DNA of 21,564 nt, taken from positions 1-21,564 of the IMG/VR virus record IMGVR_UViG_3300040856_000417, one strand, 5' to 3'. Positions within the stretch are counted from its first letter, which is position 1. Each line of letters begins with the position of its first letter. The stretch comes from a virus. Made by a program: the position numbers and the translations under genes. Positions 5,390 through 20,716 of this stretch are shown in pieces. Below the pieces are notes generated by a model. The model ran no database searches and had not been told where the DNA came from. It worked only from the letters and a program-made list of their open reading frames with translations.

Positions 5390-5406
5390 GTCTAATTTAT
5401 TGTCAT

Positions 5407-5414
5407 TACTTTTG
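5407..5414 (+). promoter_or_regulatory. Bacteroidota-type -7 promoter box (TACTTTTG)
   Basis: The only gap between portal and scaffold gene holds TACTTTTG, an exact fit to TAnnTTTG. No convincing -33 TTTG lies about 19 bases upstream. Transcription would start some 10 bases before the ATG at 5429, giving a very short leader. The promoter would let coat and scaffold be expressed apart from the packaging genes. Confidence 0.55.
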
Positions 5415-5428
5415 TAAAAATCTAATCT

Positions 5429-6547
5429 ATGGAACTCAAAGTTCGCGAGGTGACAGGCGCAGAAAAGTCACAACAAGAAATCGAGCAGGCACTTCTTGAC
5501 AAGCACGAGCAAGAAGTAAATGCCACAGAGGTGCAGGAGGTGAAGTCGGAGACGGCTGAGTCGCCTGCACAAGAAGAAGCACCTGTGCAGGAGGAAGCTC
5601 CGGCTCAGGAATCTAAGTCAGAGCTTTCTGACGACGACGTTCTTTCATATATCAAAAACAGATACGACAAGCAGATTGATTCTGTAGACCAACTTTTTGC
5701 CGAGCGCGAAGAGGCCGAGGAGCTACCTGAAGATGTCGCTGCGTATCTGAAGTACAAGAAGGATACGGGAAGAGGTTTCAACGACTTCGTAAAACTGAAC
5801 AGGGATTACGATGAGGTTGCCCCTGACCAACTCCTTCGTGAGTATTTGGTTGCCACCGAGAAGGGGTTAGATGCAGAAGACATCGACACCCTGATGGAGG
5901 CTTATTCTTTTGACGAGGAGTTGGATGACGAATCGACGATTAAGAAGACCAAGCTCAACAAGAAAAAAGCTATTGCGAAGGCCAAAGACTTCTTTGAGTC
6001 TCAAAAGGAAAAGTACGGAACGCCCCTTGAGTCGAGCGGGAGTTCTATTTCCAAGGAAGACAAAGAAAAGTTGGAGGCGTATAACCAATATATCCAAGAG
6101 TCAAGCTCTTTTGAGGAGTCAATGAAGAAGCGACAGCAAGTCTTTCTTCAGCAGACCAACGAAGTTTTCGGAAGTGAGTTCAAGGGCTTTGAGTTCACGC
6201 TTGACGAAAACAAGAAGGTCACCTTCTCTCCGGGTGATGCTACTGAGTTGAAGAAGGCACAGTCTGATGCAACCAACTTCCTTAAGAAGTATGTTGATGA
6301 GAATGGTGTCATCAAAGACGCAGCAGGTTACCACCGAGCGTTGGCTATCGCTATGAATCCCGAAAAGTTTGCCAAGTTCTTTTACGAGCAAGGCAAATCT
6401 GTTCAGGCTGACAGTACGATGCGTAAGATGAAGAATACTGACATGTCTATGCGCAGCGCACCTGAAGTCACGAGTAAGGGAGGAGTGCAAATAAAGTCCT
6501 TGAACAATGACTCAGGTCGAGGGCTAAAAATTAGGAGTCGCAAATAA
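5429..6547 (+). CDS. Putative capsid scaffolding protein
   Basis: The 372-residue product sits between portal and coat gene, the usual place for a scaffold that shapes the procapsid and leaves or is removed before packaging. Composition supports this: residues 1-70 are acidic and low in complexity (repeats such as AQEEAPVQEEAPAQE), the middle (about 70-290) is highly charged and helical with many lysine/glutamate heptad-like stretches, and the C terminus is basic (GRGLKIRSRK). P22-type scaffolds use a basic C-terminal helix pair to bind coat protein, so the tail end is a plausible coat-binding site. There is no visible protease motif and no cysteine in the sequence. The ATG follows an A/T-rich leader with no Shine-Dalgarno site, behind the promoter box at 5407. 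It could instead be an internal head protein. Confidence 0.7.
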   Translation: MELKVREVTGAEKSQQEIEQALLDKHEQEVNATEVQEVKSETAESPAQEEAPVQEEAPAQESKSELSDDDVLSYIKNRYDKQIDSVDQLFAEREEAEELPEDVAAYLKYKKDTGRGFNDFVKLNRDYDEVAPDQLLREYLVATEKGLDAEDIDTLMEAYSFDEELDDESTIKKTKLNKKKAIAKAKDFFESQKEKYGTPLESSGSSISKEDKEKLEAYNQYIQESSSFEESMKKRQQVFLQQTNEVFGSEFKGFEFTLDENKKVTFSPGDATELKKAQSDATNFLKKYVDENGVIKDAAGYHRALAIAMNPEKFAKFFYEQGKSVQADSTMRKMKNTDMSMRSAPEVTSKGGVQIKSLNNDSGRGLKIRSRK

Positions 6548-6562
6548 AACATTAAGAAAAAA

Positions 6563-8038
6563 ATGGCACTATCCGCTACACCGGGATTTGACCTCCAACC
6601 GAGTGCTCAACAGATTCCCGTCGCAACAAACTACATCAAGGACTTTGATTTCTTGAATCAGTACCTCCCTGACACCTACGAAAAGGAGTTCGAGAGATAC
6701 GGCAACAGAACCATCTCTTCATTCCTCCGTATGGTGGGTGCTGAGATGCCTTCTAACTCTGACCTCGTCAAGTGGGCAGAGCAGGGCAGACTGCACACCA
6801 AGTACACTCAGGTAGGAACAGCAGGCGTTGTCGCTGCAGGCACTGATGTTGTGGACTTCATTGTTAATGACAACATTGCTCCGGGTGGAACTACCGCTTC
6901 TGCTACAGGGGGTATCGCCTTGCGTGACAACCAAACTATCATGATTGTTTGGAACAATGGTGCAGGCTCTAACAAAGCTATCGTGAGCAACGTTGACCCT
7001 GTCGCCAAGACTTTCAAGGCCAACATCTATGAGCAGGCAGGTTCTGCTGCTGCTACCACCGCAGGTGGAAACGACTGCACCATCTTCATCTACGGTTCTG
7101 AGTTCAACAAAGGAACAGGAGGTATGAACGGCTCTCTCGAAGCTGACGACTTCATCTTCCAAAACAAGCCTATCATCTTGAAGGATACCTACGAGGTGAG
7201 CGGTTCTGACATGGCTCAGATTGGATGGGTTGAGGTTACTACTGAGAACGGAGCTACAGGATACCTGTGGTACTTGAAGTCTGAGCACGAGACTCGCTTG
7301 CGCTTTGACGACTACCTCGAAACTGCTATGATTGAGGCTGTTCCTGCAGACGCAGGCTCAGGTGCAGGTGACTACTTGCAGGGACTTACTGCCGCTCCGG
7401 GTACTTCTGTCGCAGGTCTCAACGGTTCTGAAGGTATCTTCTACACCGTGAACCAAAGAGGTAACGTGTACGCAGGTGGTAACCCCACTGTGCTTGCAGA
7501 CTTCGACACTGTGATTCAGCGTCTCGACAAGCAGGGTTCTATCGAGGAGAACGTTCTCTTCATCAACCGTCAGTTCTCGTTCGACATCGACGATATGTTG
7601 GCTGCTCAAAACTCCTACGGAGCGGGTGGTACTTCATTCGGTCTGTTCGACAACGACGAAGAGATGGCCTTGAACCTTGGCTTCTCAGGCTTCCGCAGAG
7701 GTTACGACTTCTACAAGACTGATTGGAAATACCTGAACGACCCAACTATGCGCGGTGGTCTGTCTACTGTGGCAGGCAGCGGTGCTGTGAACGGTCTTCT
7801 CGTTCCTGCAGGTTCTACTACCGTGTACGACCAAATCCTTGGTAAGAACGCGAAGCGTCCATTCTTGCACGTTCGTTACAGAGCGTCTGAGACTGAAGAC
7901 CGTCGCTACAAGACTTGGATTACAGGTTCTGCCGGAGGAGCTATGGTTAACGACATCGACAAGATGCAGGTTAACTACCTCTCTGAAAGATGCGTCTGCA
8001 CCCTCGGTGCAAACAACTTCGTAATCTTCAATGCGTAA
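6563..8038 (+). CDS. Major capsid protein (HK97 fold family)
   Basis: The product of 491 residues is the shell subunit. Length, position after a scaffold-like gene, and several blocks match coat proteins of Bacteroidota podoviruses: SSFLRMVGAEMPSNSDLVKW (about residues 51-70) followed by QGRLHTKY, a beta-rich insertion (about 80-200), FNKGTGGMNGSLEADDF, ILKDTYEVSGSDMAQIGW (about 210-227), GYLWYLKSEHETRLRFDDYL (about 233-252, a candidate long spine helix), GYDFYKTDWKYLNDPTMRGG (about 388-407), and a C-terminal YLSERCVCTLGANNFVIF. The start lies only 15 bases after the scaffold stop, behind the A-rich leader AACATTAAGAAAAAA with no Shine-Dalgarno site; such A-rich leaders favour strong translation in Bacteroidota. 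A very stable hairpin follows the stop. I see no N-terminal cleavage site. The HK97 fold is inferred from family knowledge. Confidence 0.92.
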   Translation: MALSATPGFDLQPSAQQIPVATNYIKDFDFLNQYLPDTYEKEFERYGNRTISSFLRMVGAEMPSNSDLVKWAEQGRLHTKYTQVGTAGVVAAGTDVVDFIVNDNIAPGGTTASATGGIALRDNQTIMIVWNNGAGSNKAIVSNVDPVAKTFKANIYEQAGSAAATTAGGNDCTIFIYGSEFNKGTGGMNGSLEADDFIFQNKPIILKDTYEVSGSDMAQIGWVEVTTENGATGYLWYLKSEHETRLRFDDYLETAMIEAVPADAGSGAGDYLQGLTAAPGTSVAGLNGSEGIFYTVNQRGNVYAGGNPTVLADFDTVIQRLDKQGSIEENVLFINRQFSFDIDDMLAAQNSYGAGGTSFGLFDNDEEMALNLGFSGFRRGYDFYKTDWKYLNDPTMRGGLSTVAGSGAVNGLLVPAGSTTVYDQILGKNAKRPFLHVRYRASETEDRRYKTWITGSAGGAMVNDIDKMQVNYLSERCVCTLGANNFVIFNA

Positions 8039-8051
8039 GATTGCCTAAGCC

Positions 8052-8098
8052 GTAAAGGGGAGGCGTGTCCTTGAGGACACGCTTCCCACTTTACTTTT
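8052..8098 (+). terminator. Long hairpin with T-rich tail after the coat gene
   Basis: Bases 8052-8070 pair with 8075-8094 around a TTGA loop; the arms match along about 19 pairs with one bulge and one G-T wobble, and are followed by TTTTCT. It fits an intrinsic terminator and may also protect the coat mRNA 3' end. The T tract is short, so some readthrough into the next gene is likely. Confidence 0.85.
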
Positions 8099-8119
8099 CT
8101 CAAATCTAATTTTTATCTA

Positions 8120-8869
8120 ATGAAGAAGACTGAACAGTACGTCGATAAGTCGTACAAGCTGACGCGGGAGGTAGCTCCGCTTTCGTACATGCTGCCCACC
8201 CGCAACACACGTCGTATGCCACTCTTGCACTTCGATGAAGAGACAGGCACGAACAGAGCGTTGCGCTATGCGCGTAACCAACAATCTCCTTATGAGGACG
8301 AGCAGGATGGCAACGCCATTGTTGAACCTATCATCTTTGAGGACGGCTTCCTTTATGTGGAGCGAAGCAATCAGGTGCTTCAGCACTTCCTGAGTGTCCA
8401 CCCTCTTTTCGGAAAGTCTTTCGTAGAGGTGGACAAGGAAAAGGATGCAGAAGCAGAGGTGGAATACTTGGCTCTTGAAGCTGATGCCCTTGCCGAGGCA
8501 CGTAACCTTTCGTTGGAAGAAATCGAAAACGTTGTCCGCGTGGCCTTCGGTCGCAATACGGAGCGTATGTCTTCTGCCGAGCTGAAGCGTGATGTCTTGG
8601 TGTTGGCTAAGAATGACCCTGAGAGCTTCTTAAACCTTATCCAAGACCCTGAGCTGAGGTTCTCCTCAAACGTTCGGAGGTTCTTCGATGCAGGGTTCTT
8701 GAGCACTCGTCGCCAAGGCACGGAGGTGTGGTTTAGCACACCGACCAACAAGAAGAAGATGCTTAGTGTCCCATTTGGGCTTGAGCCAACGCAAGCGGCT
8801 GCATCGTTCCTTAAGAGCGATGACGGAATTGAAGCGTTGAAGATGCTAGAGGCTCTACTTGAGGAGTAA
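8120..8869 (+). CDS. Conserved coat-adjacent structural protein, role unknown
   Basis: The 249-residue protein has two visible parts. Residues 1-110 form a compact region with PLLHFDEETGTNRALRY, QQSPYEDEQDGNAIVEPIIF and a strand-helix run through NQVLQHFLSVHPL. Residues about 110-249 are helical and charged (KDAEAEVEYLALEADALAEA, then SAELKRDVLVLAKNDPESFL) and end in DDGIEALKMLEALLEE. I recognise the type of protein from phages of aquatic Bacteroidota, where it tends to follow the coat gene, but I know of no assigned function. Candidates are a minor head protein or a head-completion factor. It lies between a strong hairpin upstream and a perfect terminator downstream, so it probably ends the coat transcription unit or has its own promoter; the leader contains TAATTTTT, one base off the -7 consensus. 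The ATG at 8120 has no Shine-Dalgarno site. Confidence 0.75.
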   Translation: MKKTEQYVDKSYKLTREVAPLSYMLPTRNTRRMPLLHFDEETGTNRALRYARNQQSPYEDEQDGNAIVEPIIFEDGFLYVERSNQVLQHFLSVHPLFGKSFVEVDKEKDAEAEVEYLALEADALAEARNLSLEEIENVVRVAFGRNTERMSSAELKRDVLVLAKNDPESFLNLIQDPELRFSSNVRRFFDAGFLSTRRQGTEVWFSTPTNKKKMLSVPFGLEPTQAAASFLKSDDGIEALKMLEALLEE

Positions 8870-8970: not shown

Positions 8971-9318
8971 ATGCAGAAGTATATCAAGGTTACAGGAATT
9001 CCCGCTGCTGTTCAGGTAGTAAACTGTAGAGACATCATTGGGATTGTTAGGCCCAACAGCACATCCCCAAGGTTTGGAATTACCACAACGGATACGGAGA
9101 CAAAAATTGTCTACATGGATTCTGAGAGTGGCCTATCAGAGGTTACATTATTTACCCACGCTGCGGCAGGCACCTCCGCAAATCGTATAGCGCAAGCTAA
9201 CTTTCTCAAGAACTTGATTGTTCAGGCGTGGGAGCAGCCCTACACAGAACCATTTCTTGCTGTTGAGGCAGATGACTTCCCTGTGGCTGTTACAGGTGTT
9301 AACCCCGCAAACGCATAA
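8971..9318 (+). CDS. Small array protein 1 (subfamily A)
   Basis: This is the first of nine adjacent small genes (115 residues). It opens with MQKYIKVTG, shared in form by most of the array, then VVNCRDIIGIV, a strand with KIVYMD, a helix (NRIAQANFLKNLIVQAW) and the close QPYTEPFLAVEADDFPVAVT. That ending recurs in array proteins 3 and 4 and defines subfamily A. The likely fold is a small alpha/beta protein with four strands, one helix and a final strand. There is no signal peptide, membrane segment or recognised domain. It carries a longer central loop (TSPRFGITTTDTETK) than its relatives. Position between coat and connector genes suggests a virion accessory protein; this is inference. Confidence 0.8.
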   Translation: MQKYIKVTGIPAAVQVVNCRDIIGIVRPNSTSPRFGITTTDTETKIVYMDSESGLSEVTLFTHAAAGTSANRIAQANFLKNLIVQAWEQPYTEPFLAVEADDFPVAVTGVNPANA

Positions 9319-9320
9319 TC

Positions 9321-9605
9321 ATGCAGAAGTATCTACAATTTACAGACGCTGAAGGTCAGGAGCACCTGATTAACCTGAATCACGTTTCGTTGGTTAATGG
9401 TGTATCATCCACTAGAACTGATTTTAAGTATTTTTCTACGGAGCTAAACACCGACGTGAACATTACTCATGGAACCGACAGGTTTCCTAACGAGTTTCAG
9501 CAGTATACCTTGGAGCAGATGAGGAAGTGCTTGTCTTCTGATTGGAAGAAGCCCGTGCTTGTGTGTGAACCACCTGTTGCTATTGCAGTAACTACAATCT
9601 CATAA
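9321..9605 (+). CDS. Small array protein 2 (subfamily B)
   Basis: The 94-residue product starts MQKYLQFTDAEG, close to protein 1 at both DNA and protein level for its first four codons, but its second half differs: FKYFSTELNTDVNITHGT, then a helix ending LEQMRKCLSSDWKKP, and a final strand IAVTTIS. The TH-D/G-x turn, the WF/LEQM-x-x-L-x-x-x-W helix and the short C-terminal strand are shared with array proteins 5 and 6, making subfamily B. It follows gene 1 after two bases (TAATC then ATG) and overlaps gene 3 by one base, so these genes are co-transcribed and probably translationally coupled. Function unknown. Confidence 0.8.
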   Translation: MQKYLQFTDAEGQEHLINLNHVSLVNGVSSTRTDFKYFSTELNTDVNITHGTDRFPNEFQQYTLEQMRKCLSSDWKKPVLVCEPPVAIAVTTIS

Positions 9606-9925
9606 TGGATATGACTAAGTACATTAAAGTTACAGGGGTTGGTGGAACGACTAACACGATTATTCCATGCAATGATTTATACAAGATGACCATTGATACA
9701 GTGGCTCCTCTTACCGCAGTTGATTTGAAATACTTTGATACTGACGTGGATTCTCATGCAATCATTTTGCAAACTGACGCTACTACGACAGAAAAACTTG
9801 CTGAACAAGCCACCTTCCTTGCCGACAAGATTGTAGAGGCGTTGCAGCTCCCATACGAAAAGCCTATGCTTGAGGTTTCTGCAGACGGATTCCCTTCACC
9901 GCTTAACTCAATCACAATTACGTAA
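9605..9925 (+). CDS. Small array protein 3 (subfamily A)
   Basis: The 106-residue protein begins MDMTKYIKVTGVGG; a second ATG at residue 3 gives a start that aligns better with the other array members, so the true start may be 9611. It then shows TIIPCNDLYKMTID, VDLKYFDTDVDSH, a helix AEQATFLADKIVEAL and QLPYEKPMLEVSADGFPS. The P-Y-x-x-P-x-L-x-V-x-A-x-x-F-P ending matches proteins 1 and 4. The first ATG overlaps the previous stop (ATAATG). No known domain is visible. Confidence 0.78.
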   Translation: MDMTKYIKVTGVGGTTNTIIPCNDLYKMTIDTVAPLTAVDLKYFDTDVDSHAIILQTDATTTEKLAEQATFLADKIVEALQLPYEKPMLEVSADGFPSPLNSITIT

Positions 9926-9927
9926 TT

Positions 9928-10251
9928 ATGCAGAAGTACCTCAAAATCACCGGACTTACGGTAGGCTTTAACACTGAGTCGATTGTGCCTGTTTACAATG
10001 TAGCACGAATTGCAAGGGATGGCACAGGGCCGAACTACACACTTGTGGAGCTAAAGTGTTTTTCTTCTCACCTTAGCGGAGACAACATTGCTATTACACA
10101 TGAGAACGCTACGGAAGCGAAAAATATCGAGATGTGCAATTTCGTCGCCGACCTCATTATGAAAGCTCAACAGCAGAAGTACACCGAGCCTTACCTTGAG
10201 ATAGCGGCCACGGACTTTCCTGTCACAGTAACCAACGTAGTTGTAAACTAA
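9928..10251 (+). CDS. Small array protein 4 (subfamily A)
   Basis: The 107-residue protein opens MQKYLKITGL and continues with SIVPVYNVARIARDG, LVELKCFSSHLSGD, IAITHEN, a helix ending NFVADLIMKAQQQ, and KYTEPYLEIAATDFPVTVT. It shares the YTEP-x-L-x-(V/I)-x-A-x-DFPV-x-VT ending with protein 1 almost exactly, so these two are the closest pair in the array. The ITH turn is also found in subfamily B, which links the two subfamilies. Two bases separate it from gene 3. Function unknown; likely virion accessory by position. Confidence 0.8.
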   Translation: MQKYLKITGLTVGFNTESIVPVYNVARIARDGTGPNYTLVELKCFSSHLSGDNIAITHENATEAKNIEMCNFVADLIMKAQQQKYTEPYLEIAATDFPVTVTNVVVN

Positions 10252-10256
10252 GGGTC

Positions 10257-10541
10257 ATGGAAAAGTTTATCACCATCACAGACACTACGACGGGTCAAAA
10301 GCATCTGATTCCCCTGAACCAAATTGCAGGATTCAACTCAACAACTACGGTGCTTACTATTAAGTATAAACCACCTAGCGCAGATTCGCCTGCAGAGTAC
10401 GATATCACTCACGATACCGCACCAAGCCCTACAGCTTTTAGAGTGTGGTTTGTTGAGCAGATGGAAGCCATTCTTGCATCAGATTGGAGGCATGTTACTG
10501 CCGAGCCTACACCGCCTTATACAGTAACATCAATCGTCTAA
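10257..10541 (+). CDS. Small array protein 5 (subfamily B)
   Basis: The 94-residue protein starts MEKFITITDTTTGQKHLIPL, followed by NQIAGFNS, VLTIKYKPPSAD, YDITHDTAPSPTAF, the helix RVWFVEQMEAILASDWRHV and PPYTVTSIV. It equals protein 2 in length and shares with protein 6 the W-F-V-x-E-M-E-x-I-L-A-x-x-W helix and the APPY/TPPY-x-VT-x-I end. The leader TAAGGGTC before ATG resembles that of gene 6 (TAAGTC), consistent with duplication of the unit including its leader. No function can be assigned from sequence. Confidence 0.8.
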   Translation: MEKFITITDTTTGQKHLIPLNQIAGFNSTTTVLTIKYKPPSADSPAEYDITHDTAPSPTAFRVWFVEQMEAILASDWRHVTAEPTPPYTVTSIV

Positions 10542-10544
10542 GTC

Positions 10545-10844
10545 ATGAAAAAGTATCTTACCCTTACAAACGGAGCTTCAGGGCAAAAATTTCCAATTGA
10601 CGTGACTCAGATTTTGGGCTTTGAAGATTCAACGGCCTCGACTACTCAGATGACAATCATCTTTAGACCTATTATAGGCAATGAAGATTTGAGACTGAGA
10701 ATCAGTCACGACGCTGCTCCTAATGCTTACGCCTTTCAGAATTGGTTTGTCGGAGAGATGGAGCGGATTTTGGCGGGCAATTGGAGAGAAGTTGAAGATG
10801 CCCCCGCGCCACCTTATGCCGTAACAGCTATCTTTATCGTTTAA
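10545..10844 (+). CDS. Small array protein 6 (subfamily B)
   Basis: The 99-residue protein begins MKKYLTLTNGASGQKFPIDV and continues with TQILGFEDS, MTIIFRPIIGNED, LRISHDAAPNAYAF, the helix QNWFVGEMERILAGNWREV and a PPYAVTAIF end. Its helix and C terminus match protein 5 position by position, which makes 5 and 6 the second close pair of the array. Three bases separate it from gene 5. The pairing of an acidic helix with aromatic anchors (W, F, W) could serve self-association. Function unknown. Confidence 0.8.
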   Translation: MKKYLTLTNGASGQKFPIDVTQILGFEDSTASTTQMTIIFRPIIGNEDLRLRISHDAAPNAYAFQNWFVGEMERILAGNWREVEDAPAPPYAVTAIFIV

Positions 10845-10854
10845 TTACAAGAAT

Positions 10855-11232
10855 ATGAGCGATTACAAATACATCAAGTTCACTGACCTCACTAGCGCGG
10901 TTGGTCAAACCGAGCAGACTGTGGCGATTTATGGACTCAGGAACAACACCTTTTCCTCAACGTATGTTACTGTTAACTTTCAATACATCCTTGGAGATGT
11001 AGCAGATAACGCATTTAGCATTGGCGTAGTCGGGCCGGATGGAAGTACGCCTTTTACGTCGGGCGGAGCAGCAGGATATGACGTTGACGCTTACGTTAAT
11101 TTTGCCAATGCGATTGTTGATTTTGTTCTTGATGCAGTAGAAAACGGAAAAAAGGTAACTGAGGTCAAAGCGGGTCTTGAGGGAACTATTCGTCAAGACC
11201 TTGGTGTCATTACAAGCGTTTCATTTAACTAA
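10855..11232 (+). CDS. Small array protein 7 (diverged)
   Basis: At 125 residues this is the longest array member. The start MSDYKYIKFTDLTSA keeps the K-Y-I-K-F/V-T signature, and VTVNFQYILGD corresponds to the third strand of the others. A glycine-rich stretch (GPDGSTPFTSGGAAG) replaces the compact ITH turn, and the helix YVNFANAIVDFVLDAVENG is followed by KVTEVKAGLEGTIRQDLGVI instead of either standard ending. It therefore belongs to the same set but to neither subfamily A nor B. A ten-base gap precedes it and three bases follow it. Function unknown. Confidence 0.76.
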   Translation: MSDYKYIKFTDLTSAVGQTEQTVAIYGLRNNTFSSTYVTVNFQYILGDVADNAFSIGVVGPDGSTPFTSGGAAGYDVDAYVNFANAIVDFVLDAVENGKKVTEVKAGLEGTIRQDLGVITSVSFN

Positions 11233-11235
11233 GCT

Positions 11236-11526
11236 ATGTTTACAAACGAAAAATACCTCAAGTTTACCGCACTATCAGGTCGTAGATTTTTTATTCGGGT
11301 AAGCGATATTATCAGTATTAATGTCCTTTCTGCAACTAGACTCGACATTGTGTATGCCCAAGCAGAGCAGGCGTCTCAGGGTTGGAATATCTCACTTACT
11401 ACTGCAGCAGACGCAAACGCAGCAGTCGCAGATTTTATGGCGCAGGCTATTGATATGCAGTCAACACCTTATACGGTGAGTGTAAGGGACTTGTCGGAAA
11501 ACGGATATGTAATCACAGGTCAGTAA
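11236..11526 (+). CDS. Small array protein 8 (diverged), last of the first unit
   Basis: The 96-residue protein starts MFTNEKYLKFTALSGRRFF and then shows IRVSDIISINVLS, LDIVYAQAEQ, WNISLTTAADANAAVADFMA and STPYTVSVRDLSE. The K-Y-L-K-F-T opening, the V-x-D-I-I strand and the P-Y-x-V ending place it in the array family, though the helix is shorter and alanine-rich. It is the last gene before a strong terminator (11547-11573), so genes 1 to 8 form one transcription unit. Function unknown. Confidence 0.76.
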   Translation: MFTNEKYLKFTALSGRRFFIRVSDIISINVLSATRLDIVYAQAEQASQGWNISLTTAADANAAVADFMAQAIDMQSTPYTVSVRDLSENGYVITGQ

Positions 11527-11546
11527 GACTATCCTACTACAGAAAG

Positions 11547-11573
11547 AGAGGGGCAATAGCCCCTCTTTTTTTT
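11547..11573 (+). terminator. Terminator closing the eight-gene array unit
   Basis: AGAGGGGC (11547-11554) pairs perfectly with GCCCCTCT (11559-11566) around an AATA loop, with eight T residues from 11566. Stem length, T count and the purine-rich approach match the terminator at 8895 but the stem and loop bases differ. Confidence 0.93.
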
Positions 11574-11576
11574 GGC

Positions 11577-11584
11577 TATCTTTG
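11577..11584 (+). promoter_or_regulatory. -7 promoter box TATCTTTG giving a leaderless message
   Basis: TATCTTTG begins four bases after the terminator T tract and ends only four bases before the ATG at 11589. With the usual Bacteroidota geometry the first transcribed base falls at or next to the start codon. A short inverted repeat (GCTA/TAGC) flanks the box. Confidence 0.72.
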
Positions 11585-11588
11585 TAGC

Positions 11589-11912
11589 ATGAACGGGCTA
11601 ATTAGAATACAGAGTGGGCGTGACCCTGACCTCTACATCCCCGTTGATTCTATCAAGGAGATAACGAGAACAGGGGCAGCACAAATCACTATTGTGACAT
11701 ACCCGGTATTGCTGAATAGGGCAGGTACTAATGATGCACCTGCTTATGTGCTTACAGAGACGGGTTCAGGTGCAGGCACTGCTGATGAGGATAACGTGCA
11801 AGCTCTAGTTGAGGCATGGACTTCTGTGCTTAGGGGTCAGCAATCTGTTGCCACCGTAAACTTTAGATTTCCTATTGACGGCTTTAGCAGGGCGATGTTT
11901 GTGTGGGCCTAA
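11589..11912 (+). CDS. Small array protein 9 (diverged), own transcription unit
   Basis: The 107-residue protein opens MNGLIRIQSGRDPDLYIPVD, followed by SIKEITRTGAAQITIVTYPV. The strand-(I/V)-P-V-D-S-I pattern and the third strand ending in tyrosine match the array plan, while the start lacks the K-Y signature. A loop rich in glycine and alanine (TGSGAGTADEDN) leads into a helix (VQALVEAWTSVLRG) and a final strand VNFRFPIDGFSRAMFVW, somewhat like the DFPV ending of subfamily A. It stands alone between a terminator-promoter cassette upstream and a weaker hairpin plus promoter downstream, so it can be expressed independently of genes 1-8. Four bases separate its ATG from the promoter box, so translation is probably leaderless. 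Function unknown. Confidence 0.74.
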   Translation: MNGLIRIQSGRDPDLYIPVDSIKEITRTGAAQITIVTYPVLLNRAGTNDAPAYVLTETGSGAGTADEDNVQALVEAWTSVLRGQQSVATVNFRFPIDGFSRAMFVWA

Positions 11913-12934: not shown

Positions 12935-13863
12935 TGGCGTACATCAATCAGTTTCAGTATTACGAGAACGGGGGAGCAAATCCTGAAGGAGCCAATTGGG
13001 GTTCCTATCAGTACGTTTCCCTGTACGATATTGTCAACAACTTCATGTTGATGTACTCAGGCAACCACAGCCTTGTCAACAACGAAGAGAGATACAAGGT
13101 TCTGTTTCATGCCAAGCGTGCCATTCAGGAGCTTAACTACGATGCCTTCAAGGAGCTGAAGGTTTTGCAGCTTACCATCACAGACCAATACAGGTTTATC
13201 CTGCCATCTGACTTTGTGAATTGGGTTCGCATCTCCATGTACAAGAATGGATACCTGTACCCGCTGACCGAAAACATTCAGGTCAACTACGCCAAGTCAT
13301 ACCTGCAGGACAACAACGAACGCATCTTGTTTGATGTGGACGGCAATGCTCTGTCTCCTGAGTTCTCAGAGATTGACTACCAACGCATCACGGGAGGTAA
13401 GAAAAGCATCTACCTCAATACGGGTCACCCCTTCGATGGTTTCGAGGGATACTTCGTAGGAGGCCATTGGTACTTTGAGACTCCTTTCGGTGGGGCGTGG
13501 TATGCGCTCAACACGGAGACGGCGAATGCCAATCCGACCTTTGCCATTGACCGAGCATCAGGCGTAATCAACTTCAGCTCTAACATCGGAACGGGAGCAT
13601 CTGTGGTTCTTGAGTACGTGTCAGACGGCATGGAGAATGGGGACGACAGCAAGGTTCACATCAACAAGCTCTTTGAAGACTTTGTTTACGCATACATCGA
13701 GTACGCCATCTTGAACAGCAAGTTGGGTGTGCAGGAGTATGTGGTCAACAGAGCACGCAAAAGAAAGGGTGCGCTGTTGCGCAACGCTAAAATCAGAATC
13801 AGTAATATCCATCCCGGCAGATTGTTGATGAACCTCCGTGGAATGGATAAGTGGATTAAGTAA
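12934..13863 (+). CDS. Tail tubular/adaptor protein (T7 gp11 or P22 gp4-like, putative)
   Basis: The 309-residue protein follows the connector with a one-base overlap and precedes the nozzle gene with another (TAATG at both ends), which suggests equal co-translation. The segment VSLYDIVNNFMLMYSGNHSL (about residues 25-44) and the helix ERYKVLFHAKRAIQELNYDA (about 50-69) are typical of adaptor proteins that bind the portal and carry the nozzle. A beta part follows (VLQLTITDQYRFILPSDFVN, then WVRISMYKNGYLYPL), a tryptophan/glycine-rich central region, and a C-terminal helix pair (KLFEDFVYAYIEYAILNSKL, then VVNRARKRKGALLRNAKIRI). Such order (adaptor then nozzle) is standard in podoviruses. The equivalence to T7 gp11 or P22 gp4 is by position and helix pattern. 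Confidence 0.75.
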   Translation: MAYINQFQYYENGGANPEGANWGSYQYVSLYDIVNNFMLMYSGNHSLVNNEERYKVLFHAKRAIQELNYDAFKELKVLQLTITDQYRFILPSDFVNWVRISMYKNGYLYPLTENIQVNYAKSYLQDNNERILFDVDGNALSPEFSEIDYQRITGGKKSIYLNTGHPFDGFEGYFVGGHWYFETPFGGAWYALNTETANANPTFAIDRASGVINFSSNIGTGASVVLEYVSDGMENGDDSKVHINKLFEDFVYAYIEYAILNSKLGVQEYVVNRARKRKGALLRNAKIRISNIHPGRLLMNLRGMDKWIK

Positions 13864-16800
13864 TGGCAAAGGACTTAAGGACGTTTACCAAGGGTAAGAT
13901 GAACAAGGAACTTGACGAACGTCTTGTTCCCGATGGCGAGTACACTGATGCGTTGAATATCCGAGTCGGGTCTACCGAGGAAGATGAGATGGGTGTCATT
14001 GAAACTACCCTTGGCAATACGCAGCTCACCACCCTTCAAGTCCAAAACACACCCCTGAGCACATCGGCTCGATGCATCGGTGCGCTTGAGGACGGCTCAA
14101 CAGAGACTCTCTATTGGTTCGTGCATGACCCTGCTTTTGCAGCATCAAGCAATACGGGCAAGCTCGACCTTATTGTCTCGTTCAACACGAGCACTCAGGT
14201 TACCACATACCATGTCATCAGCATGGATGACGGTGGTGGTGTCAAAACCACGTTGAACTTCAGCCCTAAATATCTTATTACGGGGGTTAGCTTGATTGAT
14301 GACCTTCTGTTCTTTACAGACGATTACAACCCACCAAGGCGCATCAATGTTACGCGCACTTACGGTGAGCCAACAAGTGGTGATGTAGACACCATCACAC
14401 CTGACGAGCTTCTCGTCATCAAGAGAGCACCTGTTACATCGCCTTTGGTGAACTCTAGCTTTAACAGCAACATCTCTTCTACGTTCATGGAGGAGAGGTT
14501 TATCTGCTTTGCTTACAGGTGGAGATATGACGACAACGAATACTCGGCTACGTCGCAGTTTTCTACGCCTGTCTTTACGCCCAAATCTTTTGACTTTACG
14601 CCCAAGAGCTACCTCAATGAGGGGTTCGTTAACAAGCACAACAACGCTACCATTACATACAACACAGGTGGCAGCCTTGTTAAGGGCATTGACATCCTGT
14701 TTAAGGAGGCCAATGACAGCACCATTAAGGTCATCGAGAAGCTCGACAAAGCGAAGCTCGGCCTGCCTGACAACAACGACCTGACGTTCAACTTCAGCGA
14801 CAGCAAAATCTTTACGATTCTGCCGAACTCTGAGATTCTAAGGTTGTACGACAACGTACCCCTGTTGGCTCAGGCGCAAACGCTTATGGGCAACAGGCTT
14901 ATGTACGGCAACTATCTTGAGGGCTATGACCTTATAGATAGCAGCGGCAACTCTACGCAGCTCAACTACATCTGTACGCTGAAGGAAAGCACCCTGTCTC
15001 AAGAAAACCTGCCTCCTGCCAACGTTAGTGGGGGCGCAGTTACATACACCCTTCCACAAAGCGTGACGGGTGGTTCGTCTCAAACCGTGACTGATGCCGG
15101 GCAGATTATTGACCTTACCCCTTTCTGTGTTGATGGTCAGGGCAACAGCAGGCTTACGGCGGGCAGCGTCATGGAGTTTGAGTTTCAGATTTACGTAGAG
15201 TCAGGTTCTCCACAAGAGGTGGGGCCGGGGCCATTTCCTTCGCAAGTGCCTCCCGGCACAAGCGGTTCGCCCCAAACTATTACTGCTACTTTTATTCTGA
15301 ACGCCAACTATAACACATTGGCTGATTGGATGGGCAGTGCCAACTTCCAAAATCAGGTTGGTACTTTGACCAACATTTTGCCCGTTTACGACGGGGGCGG
15401 TGCATCAACATCATGTGATGGAGGAACACTTACAGACAGCTATAACTGCGGTAGAGAGCAGCAGTTGGGTTCATTTACATTGGTAACTACAGGCATCACC
15501 TCAGCTACCACCATCGCTCAACCTGAGCCTGTCTCATTTGCTCAAACTGCGGGCAATAACTGCCAAGTGGTATTTCCCGGTCTGAGATACACAGACAATC
15601 CTGCTTCGCCCGCAAGCGACTCTTTCTTTTTCTACCGATTTGATACCGCTGCAACAAAGGTGACCTTCTTTCCTGCAGGGACAGCAGAAAGCCTTCACAG
15701 CAACCGAGGCTATGAGGTGGGCATCATGTACATGGACGAGTACAACAGGTCTACTACGGCCCTTGTAAGCAACAACAACGCTGTTCACGTTCCATGCTCT
15801 GCAAGCGATACCAAGAATCAGATTAGGGTAGAGATTCCTACGAGCCAAAAACCTCCCGCGTGGGCTACTAGGTATAAGTTTGGCATCAAGCCCGACGAAG
15901 CAGGGTACAATACCATCTACTCGAACACTTTCTTTCTTGACTCAACTCAAAACAGGGCTTACATCTTGCTTCAAGGCGAGAACCCTCGTAAGGTGGAAGA
16001 GGGTGACAGGCTTATTGTCAAGGCCGACACAAGCGGCCCTGTCAATGAGTGCCTGTATGTTACTGTCCTTGAGAAGAAGGTCATGCAGGCCGACGAGCTT
16101 CCGGGCAACGATGGCGTGACGGGAACCTATATGGTTATCAGCACTGACGGTCTTGCACTCAACGCATCACCGGGGTCTTTGAAGGACACGGGCATGGTGG
16201 AGGCCAAGGCGGAGGACTTCTTTAACATTGGTACTGATAGAGCACCATACATCTTGTTGCCTCTCAACGACCCTATGGGCAACCCTTCGGGTGGTAACTC
16301 AGGGCCGGGTTCGGATTACAATGTGCCTGCAGGCTCTATTGTAACCATCAAGCTACAGGGTGATAGGATTGGTACGGGTAATGTCTGTGAGGAAAGAAGA
16401 ATCGACATTGACGACCTGCAGTTTACTGTTACGCAGAACTACAGCAGCCTTGCTGATTGGTTCGCAGGCGATGATATTATTACCGCCCTCATCAATGAGG
16501 ACTTCTATACAGGAGGCGGAGGTGTTGGTCTTGTAAAGAACGCAGGGTCAGCCTCACCATCTTCACCTAACGACCCCTCAACTATTTCAGGTTCAGGTTC
16601 AGCCAACTTTGACACGGGTAACGGCAAGGACGACATGCGCGTTCCGAACGACCTTGATACCATTGGCATCCCTTCGGGCTTGGCTCAGAGCGAGTTCGGT
16701 GCTTGCGTGCTAACGTACCCAAGCGGAAGAAAGTATCTCGGTTTCCGTGGCACGATATGCTGCGGCAGCAACAACAATAAGACTTCACGCCTCAAAGGTC

Positions 16801-19442
16801 GTATCACGGTGCGTCGAGCAATTGACCTGTTGGTTTTCGAGACGTTGCCTGCTGATGCACAGCCTGACATCTTCTTTGAGTCCTCAGTGTCTTACCCTAT
16901 CACCAATGGATTCCACGAGGGCAATGTTCAAGACCAAACGTCTACGCAGTCGGCCATTGTGGATACAGCATTTTACAACTGCTACACCTATGGTAATGGC
17001 GTAGAAAGCTACAAGGTGCGCGACTCTATTGTGGGTAAGGACTTTAACCTTGGCAACAGGGTGACAGCTACGCAGGGTCAGGACTACAAGCAGGTTAGAC
17101 GATACGCTGACATTACGTATAGCGGTGTCTACAACCAAGAGAGCAACGTCAATAAGACCAATGAGTTCAACCTTGGCCTTTTGAACTTCAAGCCTCTTGA
17201 GCAGCGGTTCGGTTACGTCAGAAAGATGGCGGGTCGCGAAACCGATGTGCTTGTCTTGCAAGAGGATAAGATTTCTTATGTCCTCGCAGGCAAGAACTTG
17301 CTGTCCGATGCTGTGGGCGGAGGTGATGTCACGTCTATCCCTGAAGTTCTCGGAACGCAAATTGCTCGTACCGAAGAGTACGGTATCTCCAACAATCCTG
17401 AGAGCTACGCAGAGTACGGGTATGACAAGTTCTTTACCGATGCCAAGCGCGGTGTTGTCATTCAGCTCCGTGGCTCAGGTGCGCAGAACGAACAGCTCAA
17501 CGTCATCTCTGACCAAGGGATGAGCACATGGTTTAGGGAACTGTTCCAAGTGTCTTTCAACAAACAGAAGCTCGGAGCCTACGACCCTTACGCGGGTGAG
17601 TACGTCTTGAGTTCCAACCTCGCGAATCTGCCTTCAGAAAAGAAGGAGCTTCCTTGCGGTACATCACAAACATTCAACGTGGATAGCGGTGCAACTGCTA
17701 CTGCGACCTACGACCTTGGTACTACCACGGGAGACGTTGTTATCACCTATCAGTTTGTAGGCACGGGCAACTTTAATGACCTGAGATTTCAGTACGACGG
17801 TGTTACCTATAATACAACAGCACAGTCTTCTCCGACTATTGGTACGCTTACTGTTCCCAAGCCCAACCCCACTCCTACGACAGGCATTTTGACTGTCGGT
17901 GGCGCGGGGTCTAACGGCACGGTGCTGATTACGGTCAAGTGCCCTGACGCAGAGACCCTCAACGTTATTCAGGTATGCTTGACAAGCGCGTCTGATGCAG
18001 GTGAACTCATCCACAACGAGTTCTCCTTTGGACAGGGTACGTACACGTCGCCCACATCTTCCACGCAGGTTACGTTCAGCAACTCAGGTATCGCGCCTGT
18101 GGTTAGTCAGTACGACATCTTTACAGGTCTTAAGGGCAGTGGATTTATTCCAAGCGGAGGGTCTACTGTTACCGTGGCCGGAAACAGGTTCGGCTCAGAC
18201 ACTTATGTGACGCAGCCGGGAACACAGTTTTCGTACTTGAGAACCAATGTTAGCTATGCCAATACGCAAGCAGGCATCAACAGTCTCCTTGCGGCTATTG
18301 CAAGCCCACCTGCAGGTTTCGGTGGTTTGATTCCAACATCAGGCATCGGCTTACCGTACACCTTCGGTAGCTTTACCAACCTTGCGTCATCGACAAGAGA
18401 CAATCTGTACCTCGTTTACGACTACCGTCAGGCATCGGGTGCGACAAATCTCTGCTACGACGGTAGCAAGCCTGAACTTGCGTGCTGCTGCAGAACAGTG
18501 GTAACCGTTTATCTTGATGCGCCTGACCTTGCGGGAGCAACCACCATCTACACCGATGCTGCGCTTACTACGCCCGCACCTACAGGGTACTACTCTGATG
18601 CTAATGCGGGTGGCATTGGTATCTACAGGTTCCAAACAACATCAGGCTCTACTGCTACTCTATCACCACCTTCGACGTGTGCTGCTTGCACGCCCGGCTG
18701 TGGAAGAAACCCTGTATCAGGTCTGTTCTCTAAGGAAGCATACGGTGTGTGGGATTGCCTTGTGGGTGCTGCTCAGGGAGCTATAGTTATTTCGTTCCCT
18801 GCGCCTAGTAGCCCTGTGGGTATTAGAGCGACATACGACGGGACTGTTACCAACCTGCTTTCGGCAGCGGTGACGGGACAACGTCAGGCAGTAGGAAGCG
18901 GGGACTTTACTATCGTAGGCCAAACCGCTTCGACATGCCCACAAGTTCCCGGTGTAGTCAACGCTGACAACTTTGTAGCAAACGGAAACAGTTGGGTTTC
19001 GTCTAGTGGGTCTACGTCTTTCACCATACCTGCAAACGCGATGCAGGTTTCGCCTAACATCGGCAATATGGTTATGGTGATTAACAAGCCTAACACTTCA
19101 CCAAATAATGTCAAGTTAGAGATGCTTGCTCCATGTGGTGGAGGCACAACGCTTGAGGCGACGATTGAATGTCCCCAAAGAATAACAGGAATCAGTATTG
19201 GACGTAGGTCACCCGACCAAGCCTCAGCATGCGGAGGAGTGCTTATCAACGTTGGGTACTTCGTTCACACCGACGGTTCAGTTGGCGGTGACCCTCAACT
19301 GCACAGCTTTGCTTTTGGTGATGACGAAGCCGCAGGGGTTCTTGCGCAAGGATTTTATGCCTACGATGACGGAACAACTAACGGTGGATTCTTTACTGTT
19401 GGGGTGAATGGTATTGTAACACAAGTAGGAACATGCCCGTAA
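13863..19442 (+). CDS. Tail nozzle/stabilisation protein with long modular extension
   Basis: The product has 1859 residues, far above T7 gp12 (794) or P22 gp10 (472). The N terminus FTKGKMNKELDERLVPDGEY (residues 8-27) then TDALNIRVG and GVIETTLGN are hallmarks of the phage stabilisation/nozzle family, which closes the tail and releases DNA. Core blocks continue to about residue 1250: ITYSGVYNQESNVNKTNEFN (about 1083), VRKMAGRETDVLVLQEDKIS, YDKFFTDAKRGVVIQLRG and GMSTWFRELF, ending GAYDPYAGEYVL. After that come about 600 residues of different character: two copies of a beta module (about 1263-1361 and 1612-1771), a LTTPAPTGYYSD module (about 1555), cysteine clusters (CCC near 1540) and a C-terminal module ending VTQVGTCP. 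The usual next domain (GWxSFxS) is absent and is found in the following gene. The extension may act in host contact. Confidence 0.88.
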   Translation: MAKDLRTFTKGKMNKELDERLVPDGEYTDALNIRVGSTEEDEMGVIETTLGNTQLTTLQVQNTPLSTSARCIGALEDGSTETLYWFVHDPAFAASSNTGKLDLIVSFNTSTQVTTYHVISMDDGGGVKTTLNFSPKYLITGVSLIDDLLFFTDDYNPPRRINVTRTYGEPTSGDVDTITPDELLVIKRAPVTSPLVNSSFNSNISSTFMEERFICFAYRWRYDDNEYSATSQFSTPVFTPKSFDFTPKSYLNEGFVNKHNNATITYNTGGSLVKGIDILFKEANDSTIKVIEKLDKAKLGLPDNNDLTFNFSDSKIFTILPNSEILRLYDNVPLLAQAQTLMGNRLMYGNYLEGYDLIDSSGNSTQLNYICTLKESTLSQENLPPANVSGGAVTYTLPQSVTGGSSQTVTDAGQIIDLTPFCVDGQGNSRLTAGSVMEFEFQIYVESGSPQEVGPGPFPSQVPPGTSGSPQTITATFILNANYNTLADWMGSANFQNQVGTLTNILPVYDGGGASTSCDGGTLTDSYNCGREQQLGSFTLVTTGITSATTIAQPEPVSFAQTAGNNCQVVFPGLRYTDNPASPASDSFFFYRFDTAATKVTFFPAGTAESLHSNRGYEVGIMYMDEYNRSTTALVSNNNAVHVPCSASDTKNQIRVEIPTSQKPPAWATRYKFGIKPDEAGYNTIYSNTFFLDSTQNRAYILLQGENPRKVEEGDRLIVKADTSGPVNECLYVTVLEKKVMQADELPGNDGVTGTYMVISTDGLALNASPGSLKDTGMVEAKAEDFFNIGTDRAPYILLPLNDPMGNPSGGNSGPGSDYNVPAGSIVTIKLQGDRIGTGNVCEERRIDIDDLQFTVTQNYSSLADWFAGDDIITALINEDFYTGGGGVGLVKNAGSASPSSPNDPSTISGSGSANFDTGNGKDDMRVPNDLDTIGIPSGLAQSEFGACVLTYPSGRKYLGFRGTICCGSNNNKTSRLKGRITVRRAIDLLVFETLPADAQPDIFFESSVSYPITNGFHEGNVQDQTSTQSAIVDTAFYNCYTYGNGVESYKVRDSIVGKDFNLGNRVTATQGQDYKQVRRYADITYSGVYNQESNVNKTNEFNLGLLNFKPLEQRFGYVRKMAGRETDVLVLQEDKISYVLAGKNLLSDAVGGGDVTSIPEVLGTQIARTEEYGISNNPESYAEYGYDKFFTDAKRGVVIQLRGSGAQNEQLNVISDQGMSTWFRELFQVSFNKQKLGAYDPYAGEYVLSSNLANLPSEKKELPCGTSQTFNVDSGATATATYDLGTTTGDVVITYQFVGTGNFNDLRFQYDGVTYNTTAQSSPTIGTLTVPKPNPTPTTGILTVGGAGSNGTVLITVKCPDAETLNVIQVCLTSASDAGELIHNEFSFGQGTYTSPTSSTQVTFSNSGIAPVVSQYDIFTGLKGSGFIPSGGSTVTVAGNRFGSDTYVTQPGTQFSYLRTNVSYANTQAGINSLLAAIASPPAGFGGLIPTSGIGLPYTFGSFTNLASSTRDNLYLVYDYRQASGATNLCYDGSKPELACCCRTVVTVYLDAPDLAGATTIYTDAALTTPAPTGYYSDANAGGIGIYRFQTTSGSTATLSPPSTCAACTPGCGRNPVSGLFSKEAYGVWDCLVGAAQGAIVISFPAPSSPVGIRATYDGTVTNLLSAAVTGQRQAVGSGDFTIVGQTASTCPQVPGVVNADNFVANGNSWVSSSGSTSFTIPANAMQVSPNIGNMVMVINKPNTSPNNVKLEMLAPCGGGTTLEATIECPQRITGISIGRRSPDQASACGGVLINVGYFVHTDGSVGGDPQLHSFAFGDDEAAGVLAQGFYAYDDGTTNGGFFTVGVNGIVTQVGTCP
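17649..17947 (+). repeat. Beta module, copy 1, inside the nozzle gene
   Basis: Encodes residues about 1263-1361. It opens LPCG, has GDVVITYQFVGTG and the QYDGVTYN strand, then IGTLTVPKPNPTPTTGIL and a close VLITVKCP. It aligns with the copy at 18696 but lacks about 60 central residues. Confidence 0.6.
18696..19175 (+). repeat. Beta module, copy 2, inside the nozzle gene
   Basis: Encodes residues about 1612-1771. It opens GCG, has QGAIVISFPAPSSPVGIRAT and YDGTVTN, then IGNMVMVINKPNTSP and TTLEATIECP. The GIRxTYDG and (I/V)xKPNxxP signatures recur in surface modules of Bacteroidota phages as far as I can recall. Confidence 0.6.
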
Positions 19443-19443
19443 T

Positions 19444-19461
19444 CGTGTCCTTGAAGACACA
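19444..19461 (+). other. Short hairpin related to the coat-gene hairpin
   Basis: GTGTC (19445-19449) pairs with GACAC (19456-19460) around CTTGAA. The sequence differs by one base from the core of the hairpin at 8065-8080. No T tract follows, so it is not an intrinsic terminator as it stands. Confidence 0.5.
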
Positions 19462-19475
19462 CCAAAAGAACAGAT

Positions 19476-20288
19476 ATGCCTGTACCATTAGCTAATTACA
19501 CCCTGACATACGACACGGACGGACGCATCCAAGGATGGCCTTCGTTCTACAGCTACGTGCCCGACTATATGGTGGGCATGAACAGCCACTTTTATACGTT
19601 CTCAGGCGGTAATTTGTACAGGCACAGCACCAACACGGAGAGGAACAACTTCTACGGTACGGTTTACAACAGCACGGTAACTACACCGTTCAACTCACAG
19701 CCGCTTGACAACAAGCTGTACAAGACCTTGGCTTTGCAGGGTGCTGAAAGATGGGCCGCACAGATGGTTACTGACATTCAGACCTCATTCGCTATGCCCG
19801 CTGATTACTTCGAGGTCAAGGAGCAGACGTTCTTTGCCTTCGTCAGAAACCAAGACGCAGACGTCAACTTCAGGCTCCGTTCAGCGCAGGGTATTGGCGC
19901 ATGTAGCACTATAAACTTAACCGACCCCGCAGCCGTAGTGGTAAACTTCCAACAAGAAGTAAGCCTTAGCGGTATCAATGGAACGCCTACAACTCCCGGA
20001 AACGTGGGCGATATGCTGTATCAGGGAGGGTCTACACCGATATTGATAGGACAGATTACTGCAGTCAACGTAAATGCGCAGGCAGGTATCAACCAACTTG
20101 TTGTTGACACCACTGTTACGGGGGGTAGTTTACCCGCTCCAAATACATATTGTTTGTTTGCTCGCAACCAAATTGCTGAGTCGCACGGGGTGTTGGGTCA
20201 CTATGCACTTACCACCCTTACGCACCCCGGAAGGACACAGGGTGAGCTGTTCGCTGTACAGTCTGATGTAATGAAAAGCTATCCCTGA
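19476..20288 (+). CDS. Separate GWPSFYSY-domain protein, C-terminal nozzle part
   Basis: The protein (270 residues) starts MPVPLANYTLTYDTDGRIQ and runs into GWPSFYSYVPDYMVGMN (residues 20-36), FYTFSGGNLYRHST and RNNFYGTVYNSTV. In many marine and crAss-like phage nozzle proteins, as I recall the family, this GWxSFxSxxPxxM block follows directly after the GxYDxxxxEYxL segment at the C terminus of one long chain. The rest also fits that ending: DYFEVKEQTFFAFVRN, SAQGIGAC, NVGDMLYQGGSTPILIGQIT, PAPNTYCLFARNQIAESHGV and ELFAVQSDVMKSYP. Here it is encoded separately, 33 bases after the stop of the preceding gene and in the same frame, with stops TAA (19440) and TGA (19452) between. It probably docks with the nozzle protein in the tail tip. 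It ends in one of only two TGA stops here. Confidence 0.72.
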   Translation: MPVPLANYTLTYDTDGRIQGWPSFYSYVPDYMVGMNSHFYTFSGGNLYRHSTNTERNNFYGTVYNSTVTTPFNSQPLDNKLYKTLALQGAERWAAQMVTDIQTSFAMPADYFEVKEQTFFAFVRNQDADVNFRLRSAQGIGACSTINLTDPAAVVVNFQQEVSLSGINGTPTTPGNVGDMLYQGGSTPILIGQITAVNVNAQAGINQLVVDTTVTGGSLPAPNTYCLFARNQIAESHGVLGHYALTTLTHPGRTQGELFAVQSDVMKSYP

Positions 20289-20311: not shown

Positions 20312-20716
20312 ATGGAATTAACTATTCGAGTCCTAAAAGAAACTGATTACGAGGACATTCTCGTTGATTGGTGGAAAGATTGGGATTGGACTCCTCCAAA
20401 TCGGGACTTTCTGCCTGATAATGGCACGGGAGGAATGATAGTTTATGACGGCAACACTCCTGTGTGTGCAGGTTTTATTTACGTAACGAACTCCAAAGTT
20501 GCTTGGGTTGATTGGATTATATCGAACAAGAAGTATCGAGACCGTAGGTCAGAAGCTATAAGTATGCTTGTAGAATCCCTTACAAATATCTGCCAATCAA
20601 ACGGAGCAAAGTTTGTTTACGCATTGCTGAAGCACAATGGTCTTGTTAGCACCTATGAAAAACTTGGCTATATCGCAGGAGACTCGTACAACAAGGAAAT
20701 GATTAAAGCATTGTAA
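20312..20716 (+). CDS. GNAT-family N-acetyltransferase
   Basis: The 134-residue product has the layout of a compact GNAT enzyme, which moves an acetyl group from acetyl-CoA to an amine. Visible are an N-terminal strand-helix (LTIRVLKETDYEDILVDWW), a central beta strand pair (GGMIVYDGNTPVCAGFIYV), the CoA-binding strand and helix (VDWIISNKKYRDRRSEAISM, where YRDRRSEA stands for the Q/R-x-x-G-x-A/G loop but with the glycine replaced), and the end motif NGLVSTYEKLGYI, typical of the final part of the fold. The tryptophan-rich stretch DWWKDWDWTPP may shape the acceptor site. Substrate is unknown; the gene sits among virion genes behind its own promoter, so it may modify a host or virion protein. 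Two bases separate it from the next gene. Confidence 0.85.
   Translation: MELTIRVLKETDYEDILVDWWKDWDWTPPNRDFLPDNGTGGMIVYDGNTPVCAGFIYVTNSKVAWVDWIISNKKYRDRRSEAISMLVESLTNICQSNGAKFVYALLKHNGLVSTYEKLGYIAGDSYNKEMIKAL

Follow-up and report, generated by a model that had tools for sequence, protein, structure and literature searches.

A crAss-like podovirus muzzle probably made as two polypeptides, broken at an insertion-tolerant hairpin

The stretch analysed here (the window) is a virus record of 21,564 bases carrying a crAss-like structural gene block, in which head genes are followed by tail proteins, and then by two open reading frames (ORFs) on the forward strand, at 13863-19442 and 19476-20288. 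The block includes the terminase large subunit (708-2957; phrog_6681) and a head or packaging virion protein in the major capsid protein position (6563-8038). Nine small genes (94-125 aa; 8971-11912) separate the head genes from those of the tail tube; most of them are clearly paralogous, with pairwise E values down to 3e-28, and they form a tandem gene family. Downstream of the second of the two ORFs is a GNAT-type acetyltransferase-like gene (20312-20716; phrog_17252), and genes of this type also follow the corresponding ORF in relatives (L015:8733-9143 and L064:7819-8229).

The first ORF encodes chain A, of 1859 aa, which comprises a crassvirus-type muzzle (nozzle) core, the N-terminal part of the muzzle (residues 1-1249; 13863-17609), and a 610-aa extension (residues 1250-1859). 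The extension consists of two modules, M1 (residues 1250-1543, approximately 294 aa; 17610-18491) and M2 (residues 1544-1859, approximately 316 aa; 18492-19439). A TAA stop (19440-19442) and a 33-base spacer, together spanning 19440-19475 on the same strand, separate M2 from chain B, a 270-aa gene whose ATG at 19476 is in the same frame as chain A. The original prediction, made from the sequence of the window, is confirmed in placing the end of the core near residue 1250, at the strand GAYDPYAGEYVL (residues 1238-1249; 17574-17609), and in having about 600 residues and a stop intervene before the next gene. That gene does begin in the same frame 33 bases on, as had been claimed, but the GWxSF segment GWPSFYSYVPDYM said to open it instead occupies its residues 20-32 (19533-19571). 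The spacer contains a second in-frame stop, TGA at 19452-19454, such that the single polypeptide characteristic of a crassvirus muzzle is replaced in the window by two ORFs with two in-frame stops between them. It also contains the palindrome GTGTCCTTGAAGACAC at 19445-19460. Predicted RNA structure at the junction was no better than in shuffled sequences (z -0.08).

The spacer palindrome is not confined to this junction. The sequence GTGTCCTTGARGACAC has two exact copies in the window (19445-19460 and 8065-8080), is often intergenic, and is found up to seven times in approximately 10 kb of other viral contigs (L219, L192, L212, L236 and L244, with the L005 contig also among those carrying it). 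Allowing up to three mismatches, there are six matches in the window against 0.37 expected, while in host genomes nearly all of the matches listed are single, and are spread across many phyla. It looks like a dispersed phage signal.

The core matches the virion structural protein family phrog_14478 (2.9e-209), and is collinear with the whole muzzles of cultured phages, matching those of phi38:1, elemo and Gundel_1 strongly. Its match to gp44 of phiCrAss001 is weak but collinear, covering gp44 residues 28-155 and 1050-1166 by HMM, with the end of the core aligning to residues 1049-1168 in an hhalign profile match (P 1e-5); outside chain B, the sequence likeness to gp44 is weak. Chain B is the C-terminal muzzle domain, matching Pfam PF25729 (crAss_MUZ_C, the Crassvirus muzzle C-terminal domain) with an E value of 2.1e-11 and a score of 44.5 bits against a cut-off of 27, as well as phrog_38031 and phrog_18548. 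By sequence it aligns to gp44 from residue 1195. The search for distant relatives was run with single proteins, conservation across the chain B alignment being too low, and phmmer comparison of either chain with PDB sequences found nothing real, with gp44 being reached only by fold search. In that search, the two best Foldseek matches in the PDB to the predicted model of chain B (pLDDT 80) were the phiCrAss001 muzzle entries 7qol_P and 7qok_A (probability 1.00). VIA aligned the model to gp44 residues 1170-1371 with Z scores of 10.1 and 10.0, compared with 7.1 for the best unrelated chain; the alignment with Z 10.1 had an rmsd of 5.3 over 146 residues. Confidence in the chain B model is lowest over residues 1-26, where the lone strand lies, as would be expected of an unpaired strand. 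The first strand of chain B, YTLTY (19497-19511), and GWPSFYSYVPDYM would continue the last propeller blade, with the remainder of the chain corresponding to the ring-joining region.

Chains A and B are one ancestral muzzle chain in two pieces, because the two parts are contiguous in single-chain relatives. Core and C-terminal domain share one ORF in phi38:1, elemoF and Gundel_1, and the core and chain B each match the same contiguous chain in phi38:1 (gp97), elemo (gp22), Gundel_1 (gp60) and phiCrAss001 (gp44). The statement that relatives run straight from the core into the GWxSF motif proved accurate, as only 2 aa separate the ...EYVL strand from this motif in phi38:1, 4 in Gundel_1 and 17 in elemo. 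The junction reads like a short hairpin in the single-chain forms, with the sequence DVYFTYKDHCLCYSE in gp44, DEYLLVITDGNEYMTIGFSE in L080 and KEYVMHEKGVFTTAYS in phi38:1. The proposed derivation from a single nozzle chain is upheld by alignment to full-length muzzles, in which both proteins are collinear with single chains, as well as by the contiguous match to gp44. Neither of the findings that would have spoken against it was made: the GWxSF domain is fused to the core in 32 loci, and so not invariably separate, and the two proteins are both related to one chain. In a further group of single-chain muzzles (L121, L122, L130, L138, L140 and L142-L146), an unrelated-looking insert of 134-178 aa sits at the same hairpin turn, meaning this site tolerates insertions without splitting. 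No match to M1 was found in the inserts of the fused L121 and L142 types.

The extension at this site is indeed modular, and inserted at the end of the core, as originally suggested; yet it is not one insertion, as M1 and M2 have different histories. M1, delimited by profile survey and alignment, ends in LCYxxxxxxxACCxC, and in the survey adjoined the core in almost every split muzzle but in none of the fused ones examined, with a few split muzzles, such as L060, being without it. M2, delimited by its separate gene in relatives and by its structural model, is in those relatives an ORF of its own between the muzzle and chain B, beginning MATSxTYYLDAPSL... at the same residue as M2 here, and the M1 that precedes it terminates in ACCxC followed by a stop codon. 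In the window and L002-L005, M2 is joined in frame to M1 through sequence like LACCCRTVVTVYLDAPDL, and the boundary is gone. M2 is composed of an anchor motif of approximately 53 aa, followed by a variable beta-sandwich (model pLDDT 89.6), for which Foldseek and VIA gave no matches beyond generic beta-sandwiches (Z below 8); the strong fold matches were to unnamed viral proteins only. Comparison of M1 and M2 with Pfam and PHROGs found no family, enzymatic, ligand-binding or otherwise. Their place at the tail tip and their modular turnover, together with the beta-sandwich-type model in the case of M2, suggest a role in host contact.

Other split lineages have up to several genes between chains A and B, among them genes for glycosyltransferases and for a 2OG-Fe(II) oxygenase. 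Such glycosyltransferases (PF11397 and PF04488) and the oxygenase lie between the muzzle genes at L036:7176-8387, L023:5689-7977 and L038:6887-8143, and neighbouring proteins in the same intervals have long Pro/Thr-rich linkers. Phage-coded glycosylation of the tail tip is a possible function of these enzymes.

Across the 130 distinct loci in which both parts of the muzzle were found, 98 were split and 32 fused, the latter count including Maribacter phage Panino, which is broken elsewhere, further upstream. The Panino muzzle (L070) is in two pieces, at 4792-7632 and 7743-8705, with the break approximately 80 residues upstream in the core, which could be explained by a separate splitting event, an intron or an error in sequencing. 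The main split group forms one clade of 63 rows with a support of 98, and the window lies deep within it, beside L006. The split muzzles of phi46:3 and L157 instead group among fused phages and outside the main split clade, and a single clade of all split forms was rejected by an AU test on 29 rows (p-AU 0.0097). There have consequently been at least two changes between the split and fused states, either as two splits, or as a single split accompanied by re-fusion or recombination. M1 was nevertheless detected in both phi46:3 (5e-64) and L157 (5e-54), as it was in the window (2.8e-93), which favours a shared origin of its insertion. The split is old and clade-wide, and also present in cultured Pachyviridae. 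In phi18:3, gp114 and gp115 are a split pair, and GenBank notes mark both as detected in virions by MS/MS; hence two-gene muzzles exist in real virions, and the proposal of a two-chain nozzle, with both chains to be sought in virions, is borne out by these homologues. The window follows the pattern of phi18:3-type Pachyviridae, with core and M1 in one ORF, and the C-terminal domain in the next. The dN/dS values of 0.08-0.21 across the core, M1, M2 and chain B reflect purifying selection on all four, and therefore the two-gene state is not one of decay.

As the tree needs several changes, and gives no direction without a sure root, the fused state might itself be derived, with two ancestral genes having been joined in phi38:1, elemo and Gundel_1; L080, beside phi46:3, could be such a re-fusion. 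This is unlikely as a general history, since the most distant relatives, phiCrAss001 and FpV4, are single-chain, and M1 occupies the break in split forms, although local re-fusions may have happened.

The original prediction went on to propose that a stop had later been gained in this phage, making the split the recent and lineage-specific outcome of one extension being inserted into a single-chain muzzle. Fused outgroups do exist, and the window and L002-L005 combine a shared frame with a short spacer, but such a history is very improbable. The split is clade-wide, middle genes are separate in most split relatives, the boundary between M1 and M2 coincides with a gene boundary in relatives, and two in-frame stops separate chains A and B. 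The shared frame itself has no special meaning, because the frame relation, while the same in the near relatives L002-L005, is variable at the gene junctions of wider relatives. It is the fusion of M2 to M1 that is derived, because L006, the nearest relative outside the window lineage, has a separate M2, and the window is deeply nested in the split clade. Hence the account of a single insertion and a later stop conflates two events and inverts the direction of the second, as M2 was joined on through the loss of a boundary.

It is similarly hard to credit that chain B is a duplicate or a decoration protein with no remaining function in the propeller. A chain A without this region would leave both the propeller and the ring-joining domain open. 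The window, though possibly a fragmentary record, holds no second copy of chain B, and this chain evolves under purifying selection. That chain B is made by readthrough or joining to chain A, such that the two function as one chain, is suggested by little more than their common frame in the window lineage, and was rejected given the second in-frame stop in the spacer, the conserved ATG of chain B, the other frames or whole genes found between A and B in relatives, and the separate gene products gp114 and gp115 of phi18:3.

The preferred reading, to which we assign a probability of about 0.82, is that this crAss-like podovirus muzzle is made as two polypeptides, with the break at an insertion-tolerant hairpin that serves as a site for modules, and with M2 fused on in the window lineage. 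Chain A would provide the N-terminal part, consisting of the start of the ring-joining domain, the propeller blades, and the Ig and crass domains, and would end its core in one strand of the last hairpin. Chain B would add the strand pairing with this one, as well as the last part of the propeller and the ring-joining domain. The break falls at the turn of a predicted propeller beta-hairpin, and as chain A ends with the first hairpin strand, and chain B begins with the second, the closing strands of the last propeller blade would probably be supplied in trans. By analogy with phiCrAss001, the two would co-assemble with six copies of each. In the split clade, the insertion-tolerant turn became a gene boundary at which putative host-contact modules collect: chain A carries M1 at its end, next comes a middle gene of the anchor type (M2), and other lineages have several genes there. 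The joining of M2 to the end of chain A gave the window lineage its present order, of core, M1 and M2, followed by chain B.

The nozzle, or muzzle, acts as a gate that keeps DNA and cargo inside the tail. A more tentative extrapolation, which we consider somewhat less than evenly probable, is that the split at the hairpin gave the tail tip a protected site for cassettes, with chain B closing the propeller in trans, such that host-contact modules and enzymes modifying the virion (the glycosyltransferases, and the 2-oxoglutarate oxygenase, next to Pro/Thr-rich linkers) could be gained, fused and swapped without breaking the gate. If the two-chain arrangement holds, a propeller gate of this kind across a large marine phage clade, which includes cultured members, would explain why its parts are annotated as separate structural proteins, and would locate the part of the tail tip at which marine phages of the split clade exchange modules. 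The domain family and the Cellulophaga phage split pair are already in databases, and no paper describing the muzzle as split was found among the open-access papers searched.

Among known systems, the T7 nozzle gp12 is a single chain. The ring-joining domain and propeller of gp44 resemble gp12 (PMC10172136), and it is solely through this statement on gp44 that the likeness extends to the chains of the window. In the comparison with gp44 of Bacteroides phage phiCrAss001 (PDB 7qol and 7qok), the muzzle lies downstream of tail tube or ring genes in both genomes, chain B shares homology and fold with residues 1170-1371, and the core end matches residues 1049-1168, whereas gp44 is a single chain in which both M1 and M2 are missing. 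Published length variation in gp44 lies in the crass and IG2 domains (PMC10172136), at sites that differ from the split hairpin. The muzzles of Cellulophaga phi38:1, Flavobacterium elemoF and Tenacibaculum Gundel_1 are likewise homologous and collinear across the core and C-terminal domain, but are single chains without M1 or M2. The uncultured phage MW202828 (Manatee Spring) has a split muzzle with M1, a small anchor-type middle gene and a GNAT gene after chain B, although the middle gene is separate, annotated as a putative glycosidase, and not fused to the muzzle. In the Pachyviridae, Cellulophaga phages phi18:3 (gp114/gp115), phi46:3 (gp111/112) and phi13:2 (gp120/121) differ in having no middle gene, and no M2 anchor on chain A, and share only approximately 30% identity with the window, their proteins being annotated merely as structural; yet they have the same split, with core and M1 followed by a separate C-terminal gene.
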